This document shows positions 676 through 13,070 of a DNA stretch of 64,000 nt, piece by piece. Each line of letters begins with the position of its first letter. Within the stretch, counting starts at the first letter, position 1. The notes under the pieces are model-generated. The model did no database searches. It was not told the origin of the DNA and saw only the letters and a program-made list of their open reading frames with translations. Source of the DNA: Nonomuraea sp. SYSU D8015 (GTDB lineage Bacteria > Actinomycetota > Actinomycetes > Streptosporangiales > Streptosporangiaceae); assembly GCF_008065375.1 (NCBI RefSeq), contig NZ_VJYI01000034.1, positions 1 through 64,000 of the forward strand, given 5' to 3'. Both the position numbers and the translations under genes were made by a program.

Positions 676-3621
676 TCAGAGGTCGCCGGGAATGGCCTCG
701 GGGTCGCGGCTGAACGCCTCCCGGGCGATCTCCACCCGGCTGCGTATCCCGAGCTTGGCGAGGATGCGTGAGATGTGCGTCTGTGTGGTGCGGCGAGTGA
801 GGAACATGCTCTGTGCGATGTCGGACGTGGAGCGGCCGGCCGCCACCAGTAGGGCGATCTTGTGCTCGGTCGGGGTCAGGGCGTCCCAGCCGTGCGCCGC
901 CCGCTTGACGCGGGCGCCGCGCACGCCGCGGCGGATCCCGTACCGGCGCAGGCGCGCCTCGGCCCTGCGGATGTCCCAGACCGCGCCGAACCCGCCGTAG
1001 ACGTCGAGCGCTTCCCCCACGACCTCCTTGGACTCGGCCGTGTCCCCCTGCTCGGCGAGGGCGACGGCGAGGTCCTCCAACGCCCCCGCCAGCTCCACCG
1101 GTACGCCGACGGCGCGGTAGTGGTCCACCGCTGATCGCAACGGCGCCGGGTCGCCCTCGTACAGTCCTGTGCACCAGGCGGCGGCCGCCGTGGCCCGAGC
1201 CGGGACCTGCTCGGCGGCGGCCTCGGCCCGGCAGGCCTCCAGCGCGGCCGCGGCGGCCGTTCGATCGTCCACGGAGAGTGCCAGGCGGACGTACGTCGGC
1301 AGCCACTGGTGGATCAGCGTCATTTCGCCGGGCCGCCGGTCGAGAAGACCGCCGAGGTGCGACAGCGCGAGGTGCCGGTCCCCGTCCTGCTCGGCGGCGA
1401 GCGTCTGCGCGAACATCAGGAAGTCGGTGTTCTCCCGATCGGCGACCGTGACAGGTGGCCGGCGCAGCCCTGCCCGCAGATGCGCGTCGGCCTCGGCGCG
1501 CTCGTCCCGGCGGACGGCGATGAGGGCGGCCAAGCCGTGCCACAGCCACACGGGGCCACGCTCGCGCAGCCCCCGGTACGTTATCGCGGAGACGCTCTGG
1601 TCGACCGAGCCGAGCTCCGCCAGCGCGTCATCCCACCGGCCCCGCCAGTACATGAGGACCGCGGCGGTGATGCTGGACATGGCGTCATCGGCTCGATCGG
1701 CGTCGTGCAGGAACTGCCGCGCCTGACGAAGGGCCGCCTCGGCATCCGACCACCGGGCCAGGTTCTGCAGGTTGAAGATCCTGGCATGCAGCGCGTACGC
1801 CCGCAGGTCCGCGTGGTCGCCGGCGCTGTTCAGCGTCTCCAGCGCCCGGTCCACGAATTCCAGCGCGGACAGATGCCGCCGCTGTACGGAGTGGTTGAGC
1901 CACAGATCGGTGAGCGCGTACGCGATGGCGAACGTGTCCCCGGCGGTCTCCCCCATCTCCAATGCGCGGCGGGCGGTGGAGTCCGCGGCCTCCAGCGCGC
2001 CCGATCCCGCCCGCTGGAACATCGCCAGTGAGGCGAGCAGCCGGGCACGCCAGGCGGTGGGCAGATCGGGCTGCTCCAACGCCTCTTCGATGGTCGCGAC
2101 GGCCGCGTGGTTGTGACCGCCACTGAACAGCGCGCGAGCCAGCGTCCAGTACATCCCCCCTCGGTCGGCAGGCTCCGTCGTCACCGCAAGAGCCTGCCGG
2201 GCGTGGGTCGCGGCCTCCTCGTGCTCCCCCGTGCCGACCAGGATGTGGGCGAGAGCCGCGCTCAAGGCGGCACGGTCAGGCTCGTCGGCGACCCCGTGGT
2301 CCAACTCCCGTCGCAGCAGCTCGGTCGCGAGGTGCGGAGCCCGGACCGCCAGTGTCGGCGCGGTGTCGGCGAGCCAGCGGCGAGACCAGCGGTCGCCGGC
2401 GAAGCCTGCCGCCAAGAGCTGTTGCGCCACCCGTTGAGGCTCGGCACCGCCGATGTCGTGCAGTTTCTGGGCCGCGTCCCGGTGCAGCGCGACGCGGAGC
2501 GCCGTCGGCATGCCGTCGTAGAGCGCCTGGCGGATGAGTGGATGCCGGAATCTCATCCGCTGACCGGCATCGACCAGGATCCCCGCCGCCATCGCCTCCT
2601 GGAGATCAGGGGAGACGTCGATGACGGACCGGCCCAGCAGTGCTGCCAGCTCGGTGACCGCGAACTCCCCGCCGAGCAGCGCGGCCACCCGCAGCATGTC
2701 GAGCGCGCCGGCCCGGACGAAGCTCAGCCGGTTGTCCAACGCCGCAGCCAACGACCTCGGGACGGTGCTCAACGAGGGCTCCCGCAGCTCGGCACGGGCG
2801 CCGACGGTCACCTCGCCTTCACGCACCAGGGACTCGACCAGCTCCCGCACGTACAGCGGATTGCCGCTCGCCTGGGCGGCAAGCCGGATCAGCGCAGGGC
2901 CCGGCTCCGCACCGGCGATGTCGGATACCAGGGCGTGGATCGCGTCCGGATCCAGCGGCCCCAGCGAGATCGTTCTCGTGCCTCGGCCGCGCAGCGCGGC
3001 GCGCAGCCGCCGCATGCCCGGCTCGCGAGGAACCGGCCGGAAGGGCAGGACCAGCAGCAACGGCAGCTGGACCGCGGTAGAGCCCAGGCGCCGGCACACG
3101 TCCAGAGAGCCTTCGTCGGCCCACTGCACATCGTCGAGCACCATCATGGTCGGCGAGCCCGCGCACACCTCGTCGACCAAGGTGATGAGCATCTCGGCGA
3201 CCGTGGCGTGGACGGCGTTGCTCAGGAAGTCGTCGGGCCCCCCGGCTCGTGCGAAGCGCGCGATCTCGGCGCGGCGGGGATCGGACGTGCGCTGTGTGAT
3301 CTCCAGGCAGTCGAACAGCAACCGCAGCGGAAGCGGGTGCGCGACCTGATCGGCGGCACTTGTCAGCACCGTGCAGCCGGACTCCTGACCGGCGGCGGCA
3401 GCAGCGGCGGCCAGCGACGACTTGCCGATGCCGGGCTCACCCTCGACCAGGACCACGCCGCCGGTGCCGGCTCGCAGCTGCGCGATGGCATCGCGCAGCA
3501 CCGCCAGCTCCGGTTCGCGTCCGACCAGGTGTGCCGGGCGGTGGGAGGACGTCGTCGCGTTCCCCCGCCACATCGGCGGCATCGGGGATCCATGACTGGC
3601 CCCCTGCGCACTCGTCGTCAT
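676..3621 (-). CDS. LuxR-family regulator of the large ATP-binding (LAL) type
   Basis: The 981-residue protein has LAL architecture. An N-terminal AAA/NTPase domain carries Walker A (GEPGIGKSS, residues 61-69) and Walker B (MVLDDVQWAD, near 160). A long alpha-helical TPR-like middle follows. A C-terminal LuxR helix-turn-helix spans about residues 905-965 and includes LTPTEHKIALLVAAGRSTSDIA. Known relatives include MalT and many pathway-specific activators of actinomycete clusters, in which nucleotide and inducer binding control DNA binding. The gene stands alone, divergent from the BlaI-controlled MFS operon, so its target is not evident. ATG 3621 begins the protein about 33 residues before the conserved LVGREPEL motif. 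Confidence 0.9.
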   Translation of the reverse strand: MTTSAQGASHGSPMPPMWRGNATTSSHRPAHLVGREPELAVLRDAIAQLRAGTGGVVLVEGEPGIGKSSLAAAAAAAGQESGCTVLTSAADQVAHPLPLRLLFDCLEITQRTSDPRRAEIARFARAGGPDDFLSNAVHATVAEMLITLVDEVCAGSPTMMVLDDVQWADEGSLDVCRRLGSTAVQLPLLLVLPFRPVPREPGMRRLRAALRGRGTRTISLGPLDPDAIHALVSDIAGAEPGPALIRLAAQASGNPLYVRELVESLVREGEVTVGARAELREPSLSTVPRSLAAALDNRLSFVRAGALDMLRVAALLGGEFAVTELAALLGRSVIDVSPDLQEAMAAGILVDAGQRMRFRHPLIRQALYDGMPTALRVALHRDAAQKLHDIGGAEPQRVAQQLLAAGFAGDRWSRRWLADTAPTLAVRAPHLATELLRRELDHGVADEPDRAALSAALAHILVGTGEHEEAATHARQALAVTTEPADRGGMYWTLARALFSGGHNHAAVATIEEALEQPDLPTAWRARLLASLAMFQRAGSGALEAADSTARRALEMGETAGDTFAIAYALTDLWLNHSVQRRHLSALEFVDRALETLNSAGDHADLRAYALHARIFNLQNLARWSDAEAALRQARQFLHDADRADDAMSSITAAVLMYWRGRWDDALAELGSVDQSVSAITYRGLRERGPVWLWHGLAALIAVRRDERAEADAHLRAGLRRPPVTVADRENTDFLMFAQTLAAEQDGDRHLALSHLGGLLDRRPGEMTLIHQWLPTYVRLALSVDDRTAAAAALEACRAEAAAEQVPARATAAAAWCTGLYEGDPAPLRSAVDHYRAVGVPVELAGALEDLAVALAEQGDTAESKEVVGEALDVYGGFGAVWDIRRAEARLRRYGIRRGVRGARVKRAAHGWDALTPTEHKIALLVAAGRSTSDIAQSMFLTRRTTQTHISRILAKLGIRSRVEIAREAFSRDPEAIPGDL

Positions 3622-3768: not shown

Positions 3769-3802
3769 CTACTACACGCTGTAGCATTACACGCTGTAGT
3801 AG
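3769..3802 (+). promoter_or_regulatory. Tandem BlaI/MecI-type operators upstream of the MFS-blaI-M56 operon
   Basis: The element TACACGCTGTAG occurs twice, at 3773-3784 and 3788-3799, with a 15-bp period. Each copy is a TACA-N4-TGTA-like dyad, and the outermost bases CTACTACA and TGTAGTAG form inverted ends. BlaI/MecI regulators bind TACA...TGTA dyads. A BlaI-family gene is the second gene of the operon that starts 24 bp downstream, so autoregulation is the simple inference. Confidence 0.75.
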
Positions 3803-3825
3803 CGGCAGCATGAGAAGGGGACGTG

Positions 3826-4998
3826 ATGCGGCGCTCGGCGCAGGTCGTCGTCTCGGCCACAGTCTTCGTTGACCTGCTCGGCTTCACGCTGATCCTGCCC
3901 GCGCTGCCGTTCTACGCCGCCGGCCTCGGAGCCACCGGACTGTGGTTCGGGGCGTTGATGAGCGCCTACTCGGTGGCGCAGCTCGCCGCCGCTCCGGTGC
4001 TCGGCAGGTTGTCCGACCGGTACGGCCGGCGGCCCCTGGTGCTGCTCGCGCTCGCCGGGTCGGCGGTGTCGATGGCGCTCACCGGCCTGGCCGCCTCCCT
4101 GGCGTGGCTGCTGGTCTGCCGGCTGCTCGCCGGGGCGTGCGGCGGGAGCATCTCGGTGGCGCAGGCGTACCTGGCCGATGCGGTGCCCGAGGAGCGGCGT
4201 ACCGGAGCGATGGCGCGGATGGGGGCCGCCATCGGGATGGCGTTCGTGATCGGGCCGGCACTCGGCGGCGCGCTGGCGCCGCTGGGGTTCGCGGCCTGCG
4301 CGTACGCGGCGGCGGGGCTGGCGGCGGTGAACCTCGCCGCCGCCCTCGCCTGGCTGCCCGAGCCGGATGGCCCTCGGACGGCGCCGGACCGTCGAGAGGC
4401 GTCCGGTCCCGGCCATGACGAGGGGATGCGCAGGCCGGTGGCGCTGCTGGCCGGCACCGGGTTCCTGGCGATGGCCGCCTTCGTCGGGATGGAGACCACG
4501 CTGGCGTTCCTCGGCCGCGATCGGTACGGCTGGGATGCCACCTCGATCGGCCTGGCGCTCGCGGCGGCCGGGCTGGCGATGGCCGCCGTTCAGGCGGGGC
4601 TGGTGGCGTGGCTGGCCCGTCGCTGGGGTGACGCGCGGGTCGCGGCGATCGGCGCGGTGACGATGGCCGCCTGCATGGTGGCGATCCCGCTGGCCGCGAC
4701 CTGGTGGCAGTGCCTGGCCGCCGTCTGCGTGCTGGCCGCCGGGCACGGCCTGCTCACCCCGGCCGTCTCCAGCCTGCTGGCGTCCGCCGGACCGCCGGAG
4801 CAGCGTGGGGCGCGGCTGGGCACGGGGCAGTCCGCGGGGGCCGCGGCGAGGATCGTCGGACCGGCCGCGGCCGGGTTACTGTTCGACCTCGGGACGGCGC
4901 TACCGTACCTGGTCGGGGCGGCATCGGCGGCGCTGGCGGTCGCGGCCGTGCTCGCCGTACCCGCCCCGGAGCCCGCAGGACGTGAGGAGGGGGCGTGA
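3826..4998 (+). CDS. MFS drug efflux transporter (DHA1/TetA-like)
   Basis: This 390-residue membrane protein has about 12 hydrophobic segments. The MFS loop 2-3 signature LSDRYGRRPLV (about residues 64-74) is typical of 12-TM drug:proton antiporters, and the N-terminal DLLGFTLILPALPF resembles TetA/MdtG-type exporters. ATG 3826 is chosen over GTG 3823 because AAGGGG at 3815-3820 gives a better spacing. It is the first gene of a three-gene operon with blaI and an M56 peptidase, so expression is probably induced through that sensor. The substrate is unknown. No tetracycline-specific residues were checked. Confidence 0.85.
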   Translation: MRRSAQVVVSATVFVDLLGFTLILPALPFYAAGLGATGLWFGALMSAYSVAQLAAAPVLGRLSDRYGRRPLVLLALAGSAVSMALTGLAASLAWLLVCRLLAGACGGSISVAQAYLADAVPEERRTGAMARMGAAIGMAFVIGPALGGALAPLGFAACAYAAAGLAAVNLAAALAWLPEPDGPRTAPDRREASGPGHDEGMRRPVALLAGTGFLAMAAFVGMETTLAFLGRDRYGWDATSIGLALAAAGLAMAAVQAGLVAWLARRWGDARVAAIGAVTMAACMVAIPLAATWWQCLAAVCVLAAGHGLLTPAVSSLLASAGPPEQRGARLGTGQSAGAAARIVGPAAAGLLFDLGTALPYLVGAASAALAVAAVLAVPAPEPAGREEGA

Positions 4999-5360
4999 AC
5001 AGCCTCGGCGAGCTGGAACGCTCGATCATGGAAGTGCTGTGGAGCACCGACGCCTGGCTGACCGTGCGCGAGGTCGTCAACCGGCTCAGCGACCGGAACC
5101 TCGCCTACACCACGGTGATGACCGTCATGAACCGGCTCGTCCGCAAGGAGTTCATTCGCCGCGAACGCGACGACGACGGCCGCACCTGGCGCTACCGGCC
5201 CGCGGCCGGCCGGGAGGCGTACGTCGCGGAGCTGATGCTCTCGGCGCTCAGCGAGACCGGCGACCGCATCGCCGCGCTCAGCCACTTCGCCCGCTCGGTC
5301 AGCCCGGAAGAAGCCGAAGCGCTGCGCCAAGCCCTCCCCCACGGCGAGGAGCCGTTGTGA
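4995..5360 (+). CDS. BlaI/MecI/CopY-family repressor
   Basis: The protein has 121 residues, the usual size for the family. An N-terminal winged helix covers about residues 1-75 and includes LGELERSIMEVLWSTDAWLT and the recognition region AYTTVMTVMNRLVRKEFI. The C-terminal part is the dimerisation arm that M56 signalling is known to cleave or disturb. GTG 4995 overlaps the MFS stop by 4 bp (GTGA), which indicates translational coupling. Together with the tandem TACA...TGTA operators at 3769-3802 it forms a self-contained repressor circuit. Confidence 0.92.
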   Translation: MNSLGELERSIMEVLWSTDAWLTVREVVNRLSDRNLAYTTVMTVMNRLVRKEFIRRERDDDGRTWRYRPAAGREAYVAELMLSALSETGDRIAALSHFARSVSPEEAEALRQALPHGEEPL

Positions 5361-6268
5361 CCTATGCCGCCCACCACGTGCTCACCCTCCTGGCGGCCGT
5401 CTCGTCCATGGCGGCCATGTCGCGCTCGCGGCTCACCTGGAGGACGCCCCGCACCTCGCTGCTGATCTGGCAGGCGGTCGGCCTGACCCTCGTCCTGTCG
5501 GTGATCGGCACGGCGCTCGCCATCGGCCTGGCGCCCTACCGGCTCGGCATCGTCCCCGCTGTCGTCAGCTTCGGGCACGACCTGGCACGCGGTGACCTGC
5601 CGACCGGGATCACCGCCTTCCATCTTCTCCTCACGGCCTGCGGCATCGCGGTGACCGTCTGGATCGTGGCCGTCTTCGCCCGCAGCGCGTGTTCCGTCGC
5701 GACCCTGCGGCGCCGGCAGCGGTCGCTGCTCGGCTTGATCGCCCATCCCCATCCCGAGCTCCAGGAAGCCCTGGTGGTGGCGCATCCGGCGGTGGCCGCG
5801 TACTGCGTGCCCGGGCGGAAGGCCGCGATCGTGATCAGCACCGGCAGTCTGGACCTGCTCACCGATCAGGAGCTGCGCGCGGTGCTGGCCCACGAACGCG
5901 CGCACGCCCACGAGCGCCACGACCTGGTGATCCTCCCGTTCGCCGCCCTGCATCGCGCCTTTCCCGCCAGCCGCCACGTCCGCGCCATGCTGGACGCGGT
6001 GGCACTGCTGGTCGAGATGCGCGCCGACGACCGCGCGGCCCGCGAGCACGACCGCCGGACCCTGGCGACGGCGCTCCACCGCTTCCGCACGTGCGACCGC
6101 ATCGCCTCGCCTCCCGGCACGCTCGGCGGAGCCGGTCACGACCTCGACGCCCGCATCGCCCGCCTGACCATGCCATCTCGTACGCCATGGCCGATACGCG
6201 TCATGCTCCTGACCGTCGCCCTGACCGTGGCCAGCACCCCGCTCAGCCTCTTCCTCCTCCCCTTGTGA
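5357..6268 (+). CDS. M56 (BlaR1-like) membrane zinc metallopeptidase
   Basis: The protein has 303 residues, starting at GTG 5357, which overlaps the blaI stop by 4 bp. Three hydrophobic segments near residues 5-20, 35-57 and 88-108 precede the zinc motif HERAH (residues 179-183). A last membrane segment lies at the C-terminus. This matches short M56 peptidases without a penicillin-binding sensor domain. In this family the protease inactivates its BlaI partner after a signal. With no sensor domain the stimulus is not obvious. It converges on chrA with only a 3-bp gap and no terminator hairpin that I can see. Confidence 0.88.
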   Translation: MTYAAHHVLTLLAAVSSMAAMSRSRLTWRTPRTSLLIWQAVGLTLVLSVIGTALAIGLAPYRLGIVPAVVSFGHDLARGDLPTGITAFHLLLTACGIAVTVWIVAVFARSACSVATLRRRQRSLLGLIAHPHPELQEALVVAHPAVAAYCVPGRKAAIVISTGSLDLLTDQELRAVLAHERAHAHERHDLVILPFAALHRAFPASRHVRAMLDAVALLVEMRADDRAAREHDRRTLATALHRFRTCDRIASPPGTLGGAGHDLDARIARLTMPSRTPWPIRVMLLTVALTVASTPLSLFLLPL

Positions 6269-6271
6269 CGC

Positions 6272-7681
6272 CTACAGCAGCACCGTGGCCAAGCCGAGGG
6301 CTGCGCAGACGGCCAGGACGCGGAGCATGGGCCACCGTAGAACGAACGTCATGACCAGGGCCGCGGCCGTGATCCCGAGGGCGATCGGGCTTACCGTCTG
6401 CGGCTCGGGCAGCTGGGCGCTGAACGGGCCCCAGGCCCAGGTGAAGGTCTTGGCGAAGAGCGTGTGCTCGGCGAAGTAGAGCGCCAGGTTGGCGATGACG
6501 CCGACGACCGCGGCGGTGATCCCGGTGAGCGCGGCGCTGATGGCCGTGTTGTGACGCAACCGCTCCACGTACGGGGCGCCGAGGAAGATGAACAGGAAGC
6601 AGGGCACGAAGGTCACCCACGTGGTCAGCAGCGCCCCTAGCAGCGCGCCGGCCCATGGGGTGAGGGCGCCGGGATCGCGGTAGGCGCCGAGGAAGGCGAC
6701 GAACTGCACCACCATGATGAGCGGGCCTGGGGTGGTCTCGGCCAGGGCCAGCCCGCGGACCATCTCGCCCGGGGTGAGCCAGGCGTAGGTCTCCACGGCG
6801 CGCTGGGCGACGAAGGCGAGCACCGCGTACGCGCCGCCGAAGGTGACCAGCGCGGTGCCGGAGAAGAACAGTCCTTGGGTGGTGAAGACGCTGTCGGTGC
6901 CCAGGAACAAGGCGACGGCGGCCACTGGCACCCACCACGTGGCCAGCCCGACGGCGAGAATCTTCCCCGCGGAACGCCAGCTCGGCTGGGCGTGGTGGAG
7001 CGCGTCATCAGAGATCAGCGGCGCGGGCCCGCCATCGCCACCATGCTCGTTTCCGCTCTTGACGACGTGCGGAGCCAGCCTGTGCACGGTCCAGCCGACG
7101 AGCGCGGCAACGGCCACGACGACGGGGAACGGCACGCCGAACAGCGCGAGCGCAACGAAGGCGGCCACCGCGACGGCCACGAACACCGGGTGGATCAGAG
7201 ACCGCTTGGCGACCCGGATGACCGCCTGCGCGACGATGGCCAGCACCGCCGGGGCGATCCCGGCGAACAGCGCGGTGACCGGCGTGGTGTCCTGCCACAG
7301 GATGTACACCGCCGACAGGACCAGCAACGCCAGCATGCCCGGCAGGACGAACAGCGTGCCCGCCACCAAACCGCCCCGAGTGCCGTTCAGCAGCCAGCCG
7401 ACATAGATCGCCAACTGCTGCGCCTCAGGCCCGGGCAGCAGCATGCAGTAGTTCAGGGCATGGTTGAAGCGCTGCTGGCCGATCCACCGCTTCTCCTCTA
7501 CGAGGGTGCGCTGCATGACGGCGATCTGCCCGGCGGGACCGCCGAAGGTCTGCAACGAGATCAGGAACCAGGCGCGCACGGCCTGCCGGAACGGGATCAC
7601 ATCTTGACGCACATCTGTGTTCACGGGCACCTCGTCATCAGGGGTCGAGCGGATGGCGTCCTGGGAAGCGTCCTGCGTCAT
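6272..7681 (-). CDS. chrA: Chromate efflux transporter ChrA
   Basis: This 469-residue protein is a long-chain (bidomain) CHR-family transporter. The N-terminal half carries FGGPAGQIAVMQ and the C-terminal half the equivalent FGGAYAVLAFVAQ, the two internally repeated CHR motifs. About ten hydrophobic segments are visible. The known role is proton-coupled export of chromate from the cytoplasm. ATG 7681 overlaps the stop of the upstream ChrB C-terminal gene by 4 bp, so the two are translationally coupled in one operon with the ChrB N-terminal gene. Confidence 0.92.
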   Translation of the reverse strand: MTQDASQDAIRSTPDDEVPVNTDVRQDVIPFRQAVRAWFLISLQTFGGPAGQIAVMQRTLVEEKRWIGQQRFNHALNYCMLLPGPEAQQLAIYVGWLLNGTRGGLVAGTLFVLPGMLALLVLSAVYILWQDTTPVTALFAGIAPAVLAIVAQAVIRVAKRSLIHPVFVAVAVAAFVALALFGVPFPVVVAVAALVGWTVHRLAPHVVKSGNEHGGDGGPAPLISDDALHHAQPSWRSAGKILAVGLATWWVPVAAVALFLGTDSVFTTQGLFFSGTALVTFGGAYAVLAFVAQRAVETYAWLTPGEMVRGLALAETTPGPLIMVVQFVAFLGAYRDPGALTPWAGALLGALLTTWVTFVPCFLFIFLGAPYVERLRHNTAISAALTGITAAVVGVIANLALYFAEHTLFAKTFTWAWGPFSAQLPEPQTVSPIALGITAAALVMTFVLRWPMLRVLAVCAALGLATVLL

Positions 7682-8109
7682 GCCGGCTCACGACCCAGCA
7701 GCAGCGCACGCTTGTAGAACTCGTACAGGCCGTCGAAGACGGGCCCGGTGATCGCCAGAACGCCGGCGTCGTCGCACGTCATCGACAGCCCTCGCAGGAC
7801 CATGTCCAGCCCACGCGCCTCGGGCGCGTCGAACCGCTCGTCGTCGATGTCGGCCTCGTGCACGATCTCGGCCAGCTTCCACAACACCGGATCGTCGAGA
7901 CCGTAGCGCCGCAGGATGGTCTCGAAGCTGCAGTCGCCGCCGTGATGCGACAGCTCCGCCCCGCGCATGTCGAACGGGGTCGCGTCGGCGGGCGCCGAAA
8001 CCGGGTCGTCGACGAACACGAACTCCGGCTCAGGATCGATATGGCGGCGGATCAACCAGGCGCATGCCGCCCGATCGATGTGCACTCCAGCGCGCGTGAC
8101 CCACTTCAT
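7678..8109 (-). CDS. ChrB C-terminal domain protein (chromate resistance)
   Basis: The 143-residue protein corresponds to the C-terminal domain of ChrB. It begins WVTRAGVHIDRAACAWLIRR, and continues with the HIDPEPEFVFVDDP and SHHGGDCSFETILRRYGL segments typical of that domain. ChrB is normally one protein of about 300 residues that acts as a chromate-responsive regulator or accessory factor. Here the domain is a separate gene that overlaps both neighbours by 4 bp, between the ChrB N-terminal gene and chrA. Confidence 0.85.
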   Translation of the reverse strand: MKWVTRAGVHIDRAACAWLIRRHIDPEPEFVFVDDPVSAPADATPFDMRGAELSHHGGDCSFETILRRYGLDDPVLWKLAEIVHEADIDDERFDAPEARGLDMVLRGLSMTCDDAGVLAITGPVFDGLYEFYKRALLLGREPA

Positions 8110-8591
8110 CCGGCACCCTCCGTCACCTGCGCCAGAACGCGCACGGCCTGCTGCGCGGCCTCCCGCTCGGCGGGCGGGAAGTAGTCGCGGCGGCCGATCC
8201 TGCGTAGTTCGGCCTGCAGTCTTTTCGCCACCCGGCTGCGCTCCCCGGGCCGGGCCCGCGCCGCTTCCTCCGCCTGGTCGACGACCGCGCGATACTCGGC
8301 CGCCCGCGCCCGCCGCATCTCCGCGGCGATGGCCTTCTCCTGCGACACGCTGCCGGGTACGGCCAGCCAGACGGTGGAGCTGCCGCCCATCTCGCCGATC
8401 TCCTCAGCGACCCACTCCAACTGCTCACGCGTCCGGGCATCGGCTGGCAACGCCACCAGCCCGTCGCCCAGCCGCGCCGCGCCGAGCCGGTCCAGCTTGC
8501 GCCAGATCGTGATCCGCAACGTCGACGGCTGGCGCGGGATGCGGTACGCCAACAGCACCCACTGCCCCGCCGTACCCGCCACCGGATCCAT
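8106..8591 (-). CDS. ChrB N-terminal domain protein (chromate-responsive regulator half)
   Basis: The 161-residue protein matches the ChrB N-terminal domain, with VLLAYRIPRQPSTLRITIWR, LPADARTREQLEWVAEEIGE and an Arg/Glu-rich helical C-terminus. In fused ChrB this half is thought to bind DNA. ATG 8591 is preceded by AGGAGGG with good spacing. It is the first gene of the chrB(N)-chrB(C)-chrA operon, with 4-bp overlaps throughout. Two palindromes 18-36 bp upstream are candidate operators. The stop codon between the two halves is real in this sequence; there is no sign of a simple frameshift. Confidence 0.82.
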   Translation of the reverse strand: MDPVAGTAGQWVLLAYRIPRQPSTLRITIWRKLDRLGAARLGDGLVALPADARTREQLEWVAEEIGEMGGSSTVWLAVPGSVSQEKAIAAEMRRARAAEYRAVVDQAEEAARARPGERSRVAKRLQAELRRIGRRDYFPPAEREAAQQAVRVLAQVTEGAG

Positions 8592-11607: not shown

Positions 11608-11798
11608 GACCCCACTGTCACCGTCACTGCGCGCCGGTGTCTTGGACAAATGTTTTGCCATCCCCGCCTTGGCACGGGGCCGTGCAAATGTGGCCTGGTT
11701 GGAACATGAAAGCGGCTCAGCAGTAAGACCGTTCGCTACTTGGCGTGTTCGCATGTCACACGCACAGTGAAAATGACATCCCATCACAGGAGTTGCCG

Positions 11799-13070
11799 AT
11801 GCAGACCCCCCTCCAACTGCCGGCCCCGAACGAGCGAACATCCCAGACGATCCGCCGCTATCGCGACGAGATCGGCCCGGTCGTGCGAGTCGAATTGCCG
11901 GGCAACGTGCCCGTCTGGCTGGTGACCTCGTACGACATGGTCAACGAGGTCCTCACGAATGACGGCACCGTCTACAGCAAGGACCCCAAGAACTTCACCG
12001 CCCTGCACGACGGCAGCATTCCCCCCGACTGGCCGCTGCGCCAGCTCTTCGAGGGCGATCACCTCCTGACCAAGGACGGCGCCGACCATCGTCGGCTGAG
12101 AAGTCTCATCAACCACGCCTTCACACCGGGCCGTGTGCGGGGGCTGGCCCCGCGCATCCAGGAGATGGCGGACACGTTGCTCGACCGGATGGCCGCCGAA
12201 GGCGGCGTGGTTGACCTCGTGCGCTCCTTCAACGCGCCGCTGCCGCTCACGGTGATCTGCGAACTGTTCGGCGTTCCCGAGGACGAGCGGCCCCAGATCC
12301 GCGAATGGGGCAACGTGCTGCTGTCGCACACCGCCACTCCGGAGGAGTCCATCGCCGCACACAACGGGATACTCGGCTACCTGGCCGCCTTCATCGAGCG
12401 CAAGCGCCGCCAACCGGGCGACGACCTCACCACCGGGCTCATCCGCGCGCAAGAGGACGACGGCGACCGCCTCTCCGTGGAAGAGATGATGTGGATCTTG
12501 TGGCAGATGCTGATCGCAGGCCACGAGACCACCGTGCACCTGATCGGCAACGCCGTCATCGCCCTGTGCTCGGACCCGAAGCAGCTCGCGCTGGCGGGTA
12601 CGGAGATCGCCTGGGAGCAGGTGGTCGAGGAGACGCTGCGCAGCCGCACCTCGGTGGTCGGCATCATGTTGCGCTACCCGCGGCACGACGTGCGGCTCGC
12701 CGGGGTGACGATTCCGGCCGGCGAGGCCATCATGGTCGGCCTCGCCGGCGCGGGCACGGATCCGGCCAGGTTCGGCCGGGACGCCGAGCGGTTCGACGTC
12801 ACGCGGGAGCCGGACATGCATCTGGCGCTCGGCCGCGGTCCGCACTTCTGCCTCGGCGCGCCGCTGGCCAGGCTCGAGATGCGCATCGCGCTGGCCTCGT
12901 TGTTCGGCAGGTTCCCCGAGTTGCGCCTGGCGGTCGAGGCGGACGAGATCGTCTACAACTCCTCGATCATCACCGAGGGGCCGGTCAGGCTGCCGGTGGT
13001 TCTCGGTCCCGCCCGGGACGTGTCCGGCGGGACCTCGTGCAGATCAGAGCCGGCCCACGACTTCACGTAG
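11799..13070 (+). CDS. Cytochrome P450 (class I, bacterial soluble)
   Basis: The 423-residue protein has the P450 hallmarks: I-helix LIAGHETTV (about 239), K-helix ExxR in EETLRSR (about 277) and the heme-binding loop LGRGPHFCLGAPLAR with the ligand Cys near 351. Length and the lack of an N-terminal membrane anchor indicate a soluble class I enzyme that needs ferredoxin and ferredoxin reductase. ATG 11799 follows AGGAG at 11788-11792. No dedicated ferredoxin is adjacent. The SnoaL-like gene is divergent. Possible roles are xenobiotic or specialised-metabolite hydroxylation; the substrate is unknown. Confidence 0.93.
   Translation: MQTPLQLPAPNERTSQTIRRYRDEIGPVVRVELPGNVPVWLVTSYDMVNEVLTNDGTVYSKDPKNFTALHDGSIPPDWPLRQLFEGDHLLTKDGADHRRLRSLINHAFTPGRVRGLAPRIQEMADTLLDRMAAEGGVVDLVRSFNAPLPLTVICELFGVPEDERPQIREWGNVLLSHTATPEESIAAHNGILGYLAAFIERKRRQPGDDLTTGLIRAQEDDGDRLSVEEMMWILWQMLIAGHETTVHLIGNAVIALCSDPKQLALAGTEIAWEQVVEETLRSRTSVVGIMLRYPRHDVRLAGVTIPAGEAIMVGLAGAGTDPARFGRDAERFDVTREPDMHLALGRGPHFCLGAPLARLEMRIALASLFGRFPELRLAVEADEIVYNSSIITEGPVRLPVVLGPARDVSGGTSCRSEPAHDFT

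Follow-up and report, generated by a model that had tools for sequence, protein, structure and literature searches.

BlaI-BlaR1 pairs are usually taken as signs of beta-lactam resistance. In the BlaR1-BlaI and MecR1-MecI systems of S. aureus a repressor is partnered with a membrane gluzincin bearing HExxH and ExxxD motifs, and control is exerted through operators of the TACA/TGTA type; all of these features recur in the operon described here, which differs from those systems in having no extracellular penicillin-binding sensor and in having an exporter, not a beta-lactamase or PBP2a, as its target. A sensorless partner has already been described for M. tuberculosis, whose BlaR1 homologue has the protease domain and lacks the sensor domain according to the accessible part of the source (PMC9834060), and the ATP synthase operon is regulated by the BlaI of that species, as stated in the accessible part of another (PMC5874750, citing Sala 2009). 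The M. tuberculosis pair is therefore similar to ours both in its sensorless BlaR1 homologue and in having a respiration gene as a BlaI target; the accessible text names atp genes, blaC and cell-division genes as targets and reports no exporter in the operon of the pair. Copper export under CopY/CopR presents another likeness, namely a BlaI-superfamily repressor encoded alongside an exporter, frequently under the control of two operators, but CopY senses copper itself via CxC motifs and has no protease partner as described in the accessible part of PMC7253601; moreover, the spacing inside a site is 2 bases there versus 3 in the operator analyzed here. In a search of mostly open literature we found no earlier report of a sensorless BlaI-protease pair linked to an exporter or of a BlaI-protease-MFS operon, and none of BlaI control of cydA; the M. 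tuberculosis regulon study (Sala 2009) may name exporters and may include cydA.

The window, which is the whole 64-kb stretch of contig C32 that was analyzed, comes from a 12.43-Mb genome and carries at 3769-6268 three plus-strand genes behind an operator. These genes encode an MFS exporter of 390 aa (3826-4998; ATG start, with a GTG at 3823 also possible), a BlaI-family winged-helix repressor of 121 aa (4995-5360) and a sensorless BlaR1-like membrane zinc protease of 303 aa (5357-6268), and their reading-frame coordinates overlap by 4 bases at both the MFS/BlaI and the BlaI/protease junctions. The genes flanking the operon on either side have the opposite orientation. Gene order and overlaps, read directly from the DNA, agree with the original prediction that the exporter stands at the head of a BlaI/protease operon; the linkage of a sensorless BlaI-protease pair to an exporter is real, conserved and was correctly described there. 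Neighbours run through Pfam comprised a LuxR-type regulator, chromate genes and a second MFS protein; neither a beta-lactamase nor a PBP was identified in the operon-flanking genes searched in this way. The chromate transporter gene lies at 6272-8591 of the window on the minus strand, the N- and C-terminal parts of ChrB being two separate overlapping genes, and a cytochrome P450 gene is found at 11745-13070 (plus strand).

A repeat search defined the operator as a 34-bp imperfect inverted repeat at 3769-3802, of the TACA/TGTA type, which is conserved before the operon and whose motif is also found before blaI elsewhere. Inside it, TACACGCTGTAG is present in two identical tandem 12-mers (3773-3784 and 3788-3799) separated by 15 bp from start to start, exactly the tandem arrangement and period that had been proposed. 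The window is the sole site of the tandem TACA pattern in the 12.43-Mb genome when up to 2 mismatches are allowed. The pattern CTACn5GTAGnnCTACn5GTAG was found with at most 1 mismatch at 3 places in the same genome, versus 0.04 expected under a base-composition model: upstream of cydA (0 mismatches), upstream of a C2 gene resembling EboE (208 bits, under the cut-off of 250) and upstream of the exporter operon. Tandem matches in this genome were counted only at this stringency, and with up to 3 mismatches the pattern fell below its control (42 versus 468 per strand). Single sites are not evidence in this genome, since CTACTACn5GTAG with 1 mismatch occurred 90 times versus 747 for the reversed control on both strands; a single site before a ResA/CcdA-type pair at C2:241990 is a lead only.

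The centre of the operator is GTAGCATTAC or GTAGTATGAC in nine of nine aligned operators, giving TAGCAT or TAGTAT (TAnnnT), while the same central position in the genome's own cydA array reads GTAGTACTAC. In the window this hexamer, TAGCAT at 3782-3787 on the plus strand, is a putative -10 element, placed inside the operator on account of its position and accompanied by no convincing -35; a standard scan found no sigma-70 promoter at the operator. TAGGAT is seen at a like place in Micromonospora loci, a few bases 5' of the blaI start codon. Because a -10-like TAGCAT sits at the operator centre, promoter occlusion would be the likely mode of repression.

With the motif as anchor, an alignment was made of the operators from nine orthologous operons, those of the window, G289, Nonomuraea sp. 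G32, N. basaltis, N. solani, N. antri, G301, Spongiactinospora rosea and N. jiangxiensis. Invariant positions numbered 24 of 34 in the operator and 0 of 120 in the flanks (60 on each side), and mean pairwise identity was 90.5% within the operator versus 35% and 34% in the flanks, the operator being the only clearly conserved DNA in the 154 bases. Judged by this alignment, the operator is a phylogenetic footprint. The long reading frames nearest upstream of the operon differ among those compared (window, L143, L148 and L150). In N. jiangxiensis (L015) an extra short ORF, which has no Pfam match, is inserted between operator and exporter; the operator, matching at 14 of 16 positions, is nevertheless located at the operon head. 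The distribution of the exporter operon is patchy: allowing no more than 1 mismatch, the operator in this form occurs in 7 of 54 same-genus genomes, and a protease with an identity of at least 60% in 6 of 297 family genomes, the window's own included; the nearest named relative of the window protease is that of Nonomuraea sp. G32 (86%).

The repressor scored 94.3 bits against Penicillinase_R (PF03965, cut-off 22.6), and the sole solved structure that it matched at E 0.001 using phmmer was 2g9w (E 8.2e-24), which we take to be the M. tuberculosis BlaI Rv1846c, the title of the record being 'conserved hypothetical protein'. A profile built from 19 relatives picks up MecI and penicillinase repressors as well. 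Membership in CopY/TcrY was ruled out (30.6 bits versus a cut-off of 121.95), the protein having no cysteine and hence no CxC motif. The helix residues T39, T40, V41, M42, T43, V44, R47, L48 and K51 are invariant in the 19 sequences, and since these include exporter-linked as well as unlinked BlaI proteins a common operator would be expected. A complete CTACn5GTAG was found within about 220 bases upstream of blaI in 84 of 95 exporter-free BlaI-protease loci (94 of them distinct, 67 from Micromonosporaceae and many closely related) versus 2 of 1900 shuffled stretches. Within the family the site was complete in 18 of 24 loci (L096-L119) and had 7 of 8 positions in the other 6; the fit was poorer for the genome's own core BlaI on C18 (7/8) and for the BlaI on C5 (6/8). 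Action of BlaI on the tandem sites, as originally proposed, is strongly supported by this motif and by the 34-bp footprint in the nine operons. The window BlaI and the core BlaI (C18) have 62% identity and the same recognition-helix residues, so that the latter could be a further binder of the exporter operator. Phe98 is likewise invariant in the 19 sequences, but the profile alignment sets it a single residue away from the MecI Phe; in MecI/BlaI repressors the partner protease cuts at the bond before a conserved Phe.

The third protein had been assigned to M56 as partner of BlaI; the BlaI half of that assignment is upheld by Pfam, whereas the protease itself matches PF01435 (M48), with 43 bits, as its only Pfam family. 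It was unmatched by Peptidase_M56 (PF05569) and is absent from the three matches of that model in its own genome, all of which are below the cut-off. Both motifs of a membrane gluzincin are present in the protein: HERAH, the HExxH zinc motif, is encoded at 5891-5905 and E220-M-R-A-D224, the ExxxD gluzincin motif, at 6014-6028, both on the plus strand, the latter being a BlaR1 motif according to the accessible part of PMC9834060. Residues H179, E180, H183, E220 and D224 are invariant in 32 protease sequences. An AlphaFold2 model (mean pLDDT 86) predicts helices at 2-23, 31-57, 87-128 and 278-300 as potential membrane spans, with a short helical loop at 65-78 and the protease domain in between. 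Nothing follows the last predicted helix (278-300 of 303 residues), which confirms the expected lack of a sensor domain, and no penicillin-binding sensor domain was detected by Pfam or in the model.

Sequence search of solved structures with the protease gave a best E of only 0.64. Foldseek with the predicted model placed S. aureus BlaR1 first, weakly (best E 2.3e-3, TM 0.32-0.40). VIA-align likewise ranked BlaR1 highest, with Z scores of 9.2-11.2, the best over 217 residues with an rmsd of 5.4, but the fold match is not exclusive, as ZMPSTE24 is within 1 Z unit (10.3 over 152 residues), and both are under the Z of about 13 below which helical folds may have only a shared arrangement. BlaR1 covers 217 residues of the model versus 139-161 for ZMPSTE24, Ste24p and BepA. 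The protein can safely be called a gluzincin of the BlaR1/Ste24 kind; its probable BlaR1-like identity draws on motifs, gene context and the predicted structure, and BlaR1-like is the preferable name given that the protein is partnered with BlaI.

Regarding the lineage of the protease, a tree of 45 sequences grouped the exporter-linked proteases in one clade (support 100/99), which also includes a copy from G278 with no exporter or blaI found in its 3.7-kb locus, L095. That locus (G278:C1:7273817-7277533) carries a protease fragment with 61% identity over residues 65-303 and is probably what remains of an operon that has decayed. The exporter-linked clade is separate from the same-genus core proteases L105 and L106, in a tree that excludes the core protease of the genome itself; in a midpoint-rooted drawing it joins Micromonosporaceae and Streptoalloteichus through long branches, a join that is unsure.

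The exporter scored 198 bits against the Pfam MFS_1 model (cut-off 33.4) and its nearest solved structure is NorA. The best NCBIfam model is that of Tet(A)/Tet(B)/Tet(C), in which membership was ruled out by a score far below the cut-off (177 versus 475 bits). With NorA as nearest structure and Tet exporters as nearest curated models, outward drug transport is likely, as judged from these nearest relatives only, and BlaI-BlaR1-type machinery here appears to control a drug pump. Among 394 class genomes a close relative of the exporter was found in its own genome only; the next best by score had 36% identity, and the other relatives listed had 23-40%. Neither blaI nor a protease gene was present in the 1.5-kb flanks of such relatives (0 of 29 further loci), so no second origin of the exporter linkage was seen in this sample.

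The more surprising by-product of the analysis is a link to cytochrome bd. Exact tandem arrays were detected in 26 of the 394 class genomes, 25 of 41 in the family of the window and 1 of 353 outside it; the reversed control pattern was present in 6 genomes, 1 in the family and 5 of 353 outside, so that exact arrays outside the family are at or below the control level. Taking one array per genome (26 loci, second sites in G042 and G033 being left out), the array was followed by cydA in 18, by a blaI-protease pair in 6 (L262 among them) and by a flavin monooxygenase in 1; the remaining array, the one outside the family, was near none of the genes probed for. The TACA pattern with at most 1 mismatch occurred in 55 of 341 family genomes versus 2 for the control. 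Besides the window's own, 29 TACA loci were examined out of a larger number listed, some genomes being common to the 341- and 394-genome sets: 18 were before cydA, 6 at the head of exporter operons and 2 upstream of flavin monooxygenases, and in 3 the site separated a blaI-protease pair from a cydA-type gene running the other way. The genome of the window has the array CTACn5GTAGTACTACn5GTAG and a third site just upstream of its cydA (419134; L157, C1:419051-419096). Moreover, in L129, L130, L156 and L262 one array is common to a blaI-protease pair and a divergent gene of the cytochrome bd subunit I type, as assigned by Pfam in L129 and L262. From the shared motif we infer that BlaI would bind the cydA arrays. 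The original prediction called the signal unknown; the field is narrowed by operators of the same kind before cytochrome bd genes in this genome and in its family. Since the family is tied to respiration, the leading candidate for the signal of the exporter operon is a respiratory or membrane one, and the pattern suggests a signal linked to respiration rather than to penicillin.

Taken as a whole, the locus is probably an autoregulated export operon, repressed by BlaI and relieved by the membrane protease. BlaI dimers would occupy the two adjacent sites at 3769-3802 and cover the -10 region, shutting the whole operon including the gene of BlaI itself; the protease, once activated, would cut BlaI in the manner of S. 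aureus BlaR1, the freed operator would allow exporter, repressor and protease to be made together, and fresh BlaI would restore repression when the signal falls. The protease may sense disturbed respiration or a perturbed membrane and not beta-lactams, a conjecture prompted by the same kind of operator before cytochrome bd genes. More tentatively, and with rather less than even confidence, we propose that the sensorless BlaI-protease pairs of actinomycetes are respiration guards, which would read the respiratory chain or the quinone pool and release cytochrome bd when BlaI is cut, and that a separate old lineage was wired to an MFS pump in Nonomuraea-like genomes, giving inducible export against respiratory poisons. 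If such machinery does control a drug pump here and its operators elsewhere in the family do serve cytochrome bd genes, annotating a sensorless BlaI pair as a penicillin system is misleading.

Other explanations were weighed against the autoregulated operon. The exporter might be one more respiration-linked target in the regulon of the core BlaI (C18), to which the operator would mainly belong, with the linked BlaI adding little; the 62% identity between the two repressors, their common recognition helix and the related array before cydA speak for this, but the exporter operator has a conserved centre, GTAG[CT]AT.AC, unlike that of the cydA array, and the proteases linked to this operator form their own clade, which makes such an explanation unlikely. 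We consider even less probable a classical beta-lactam response, in which beta-lactams or wall damage would be sensed by the protease indirectly (e.g. via a PASTA kinase), the drug or wall fragments being removed by the exporter. BlaI and BlaR1 are known from that role, and the accessible part of PMC9834060 suggests that in M. tuberculosis PknB might take the place of the sensor; however, the protease here is devoid of a penicillin-binding domain, the flanking genes run through Pfam include no beta-lactamase or PBP, and the related operators are mostly before cytochrome bd genes.

It is also conceivable, though very improbable, that BlaI directly senses a metal or small molecule, as CopY does copper, the protease having another job. 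CopY is homologous to BlaI, controls exporters and has two operators in 67 of 88 cases, according to the accessible part of PMC7253601, but a repressor that has no cysteine and scores below the cut-off of the CopY model does not fit such a role, nor do protease motifs that are invariant.

Finally, genes of other kinds were observed next to these operators or to blaI. The tandem operator also precedes FAD-binding monooxygenase genes in L128 (1528-2724) and L151 (1540-2673), both identified by Pfam, and in L249, identified by similarity (50%); a divergent MFS gene is nearby in L151. The core blaI-protease pair of the window's own genome (C18, L126:1969-2673) adjoins a gene for a CbtA cobalt transporter. 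In Streptoalloteichus (L057:2522-3595) a heme O synthase gene (ctaB) is divergent from blaI, with a site at 3516 between them if ctaB starts at 3478; its longest reading frame would cover that site, and 3478 is the likely start.
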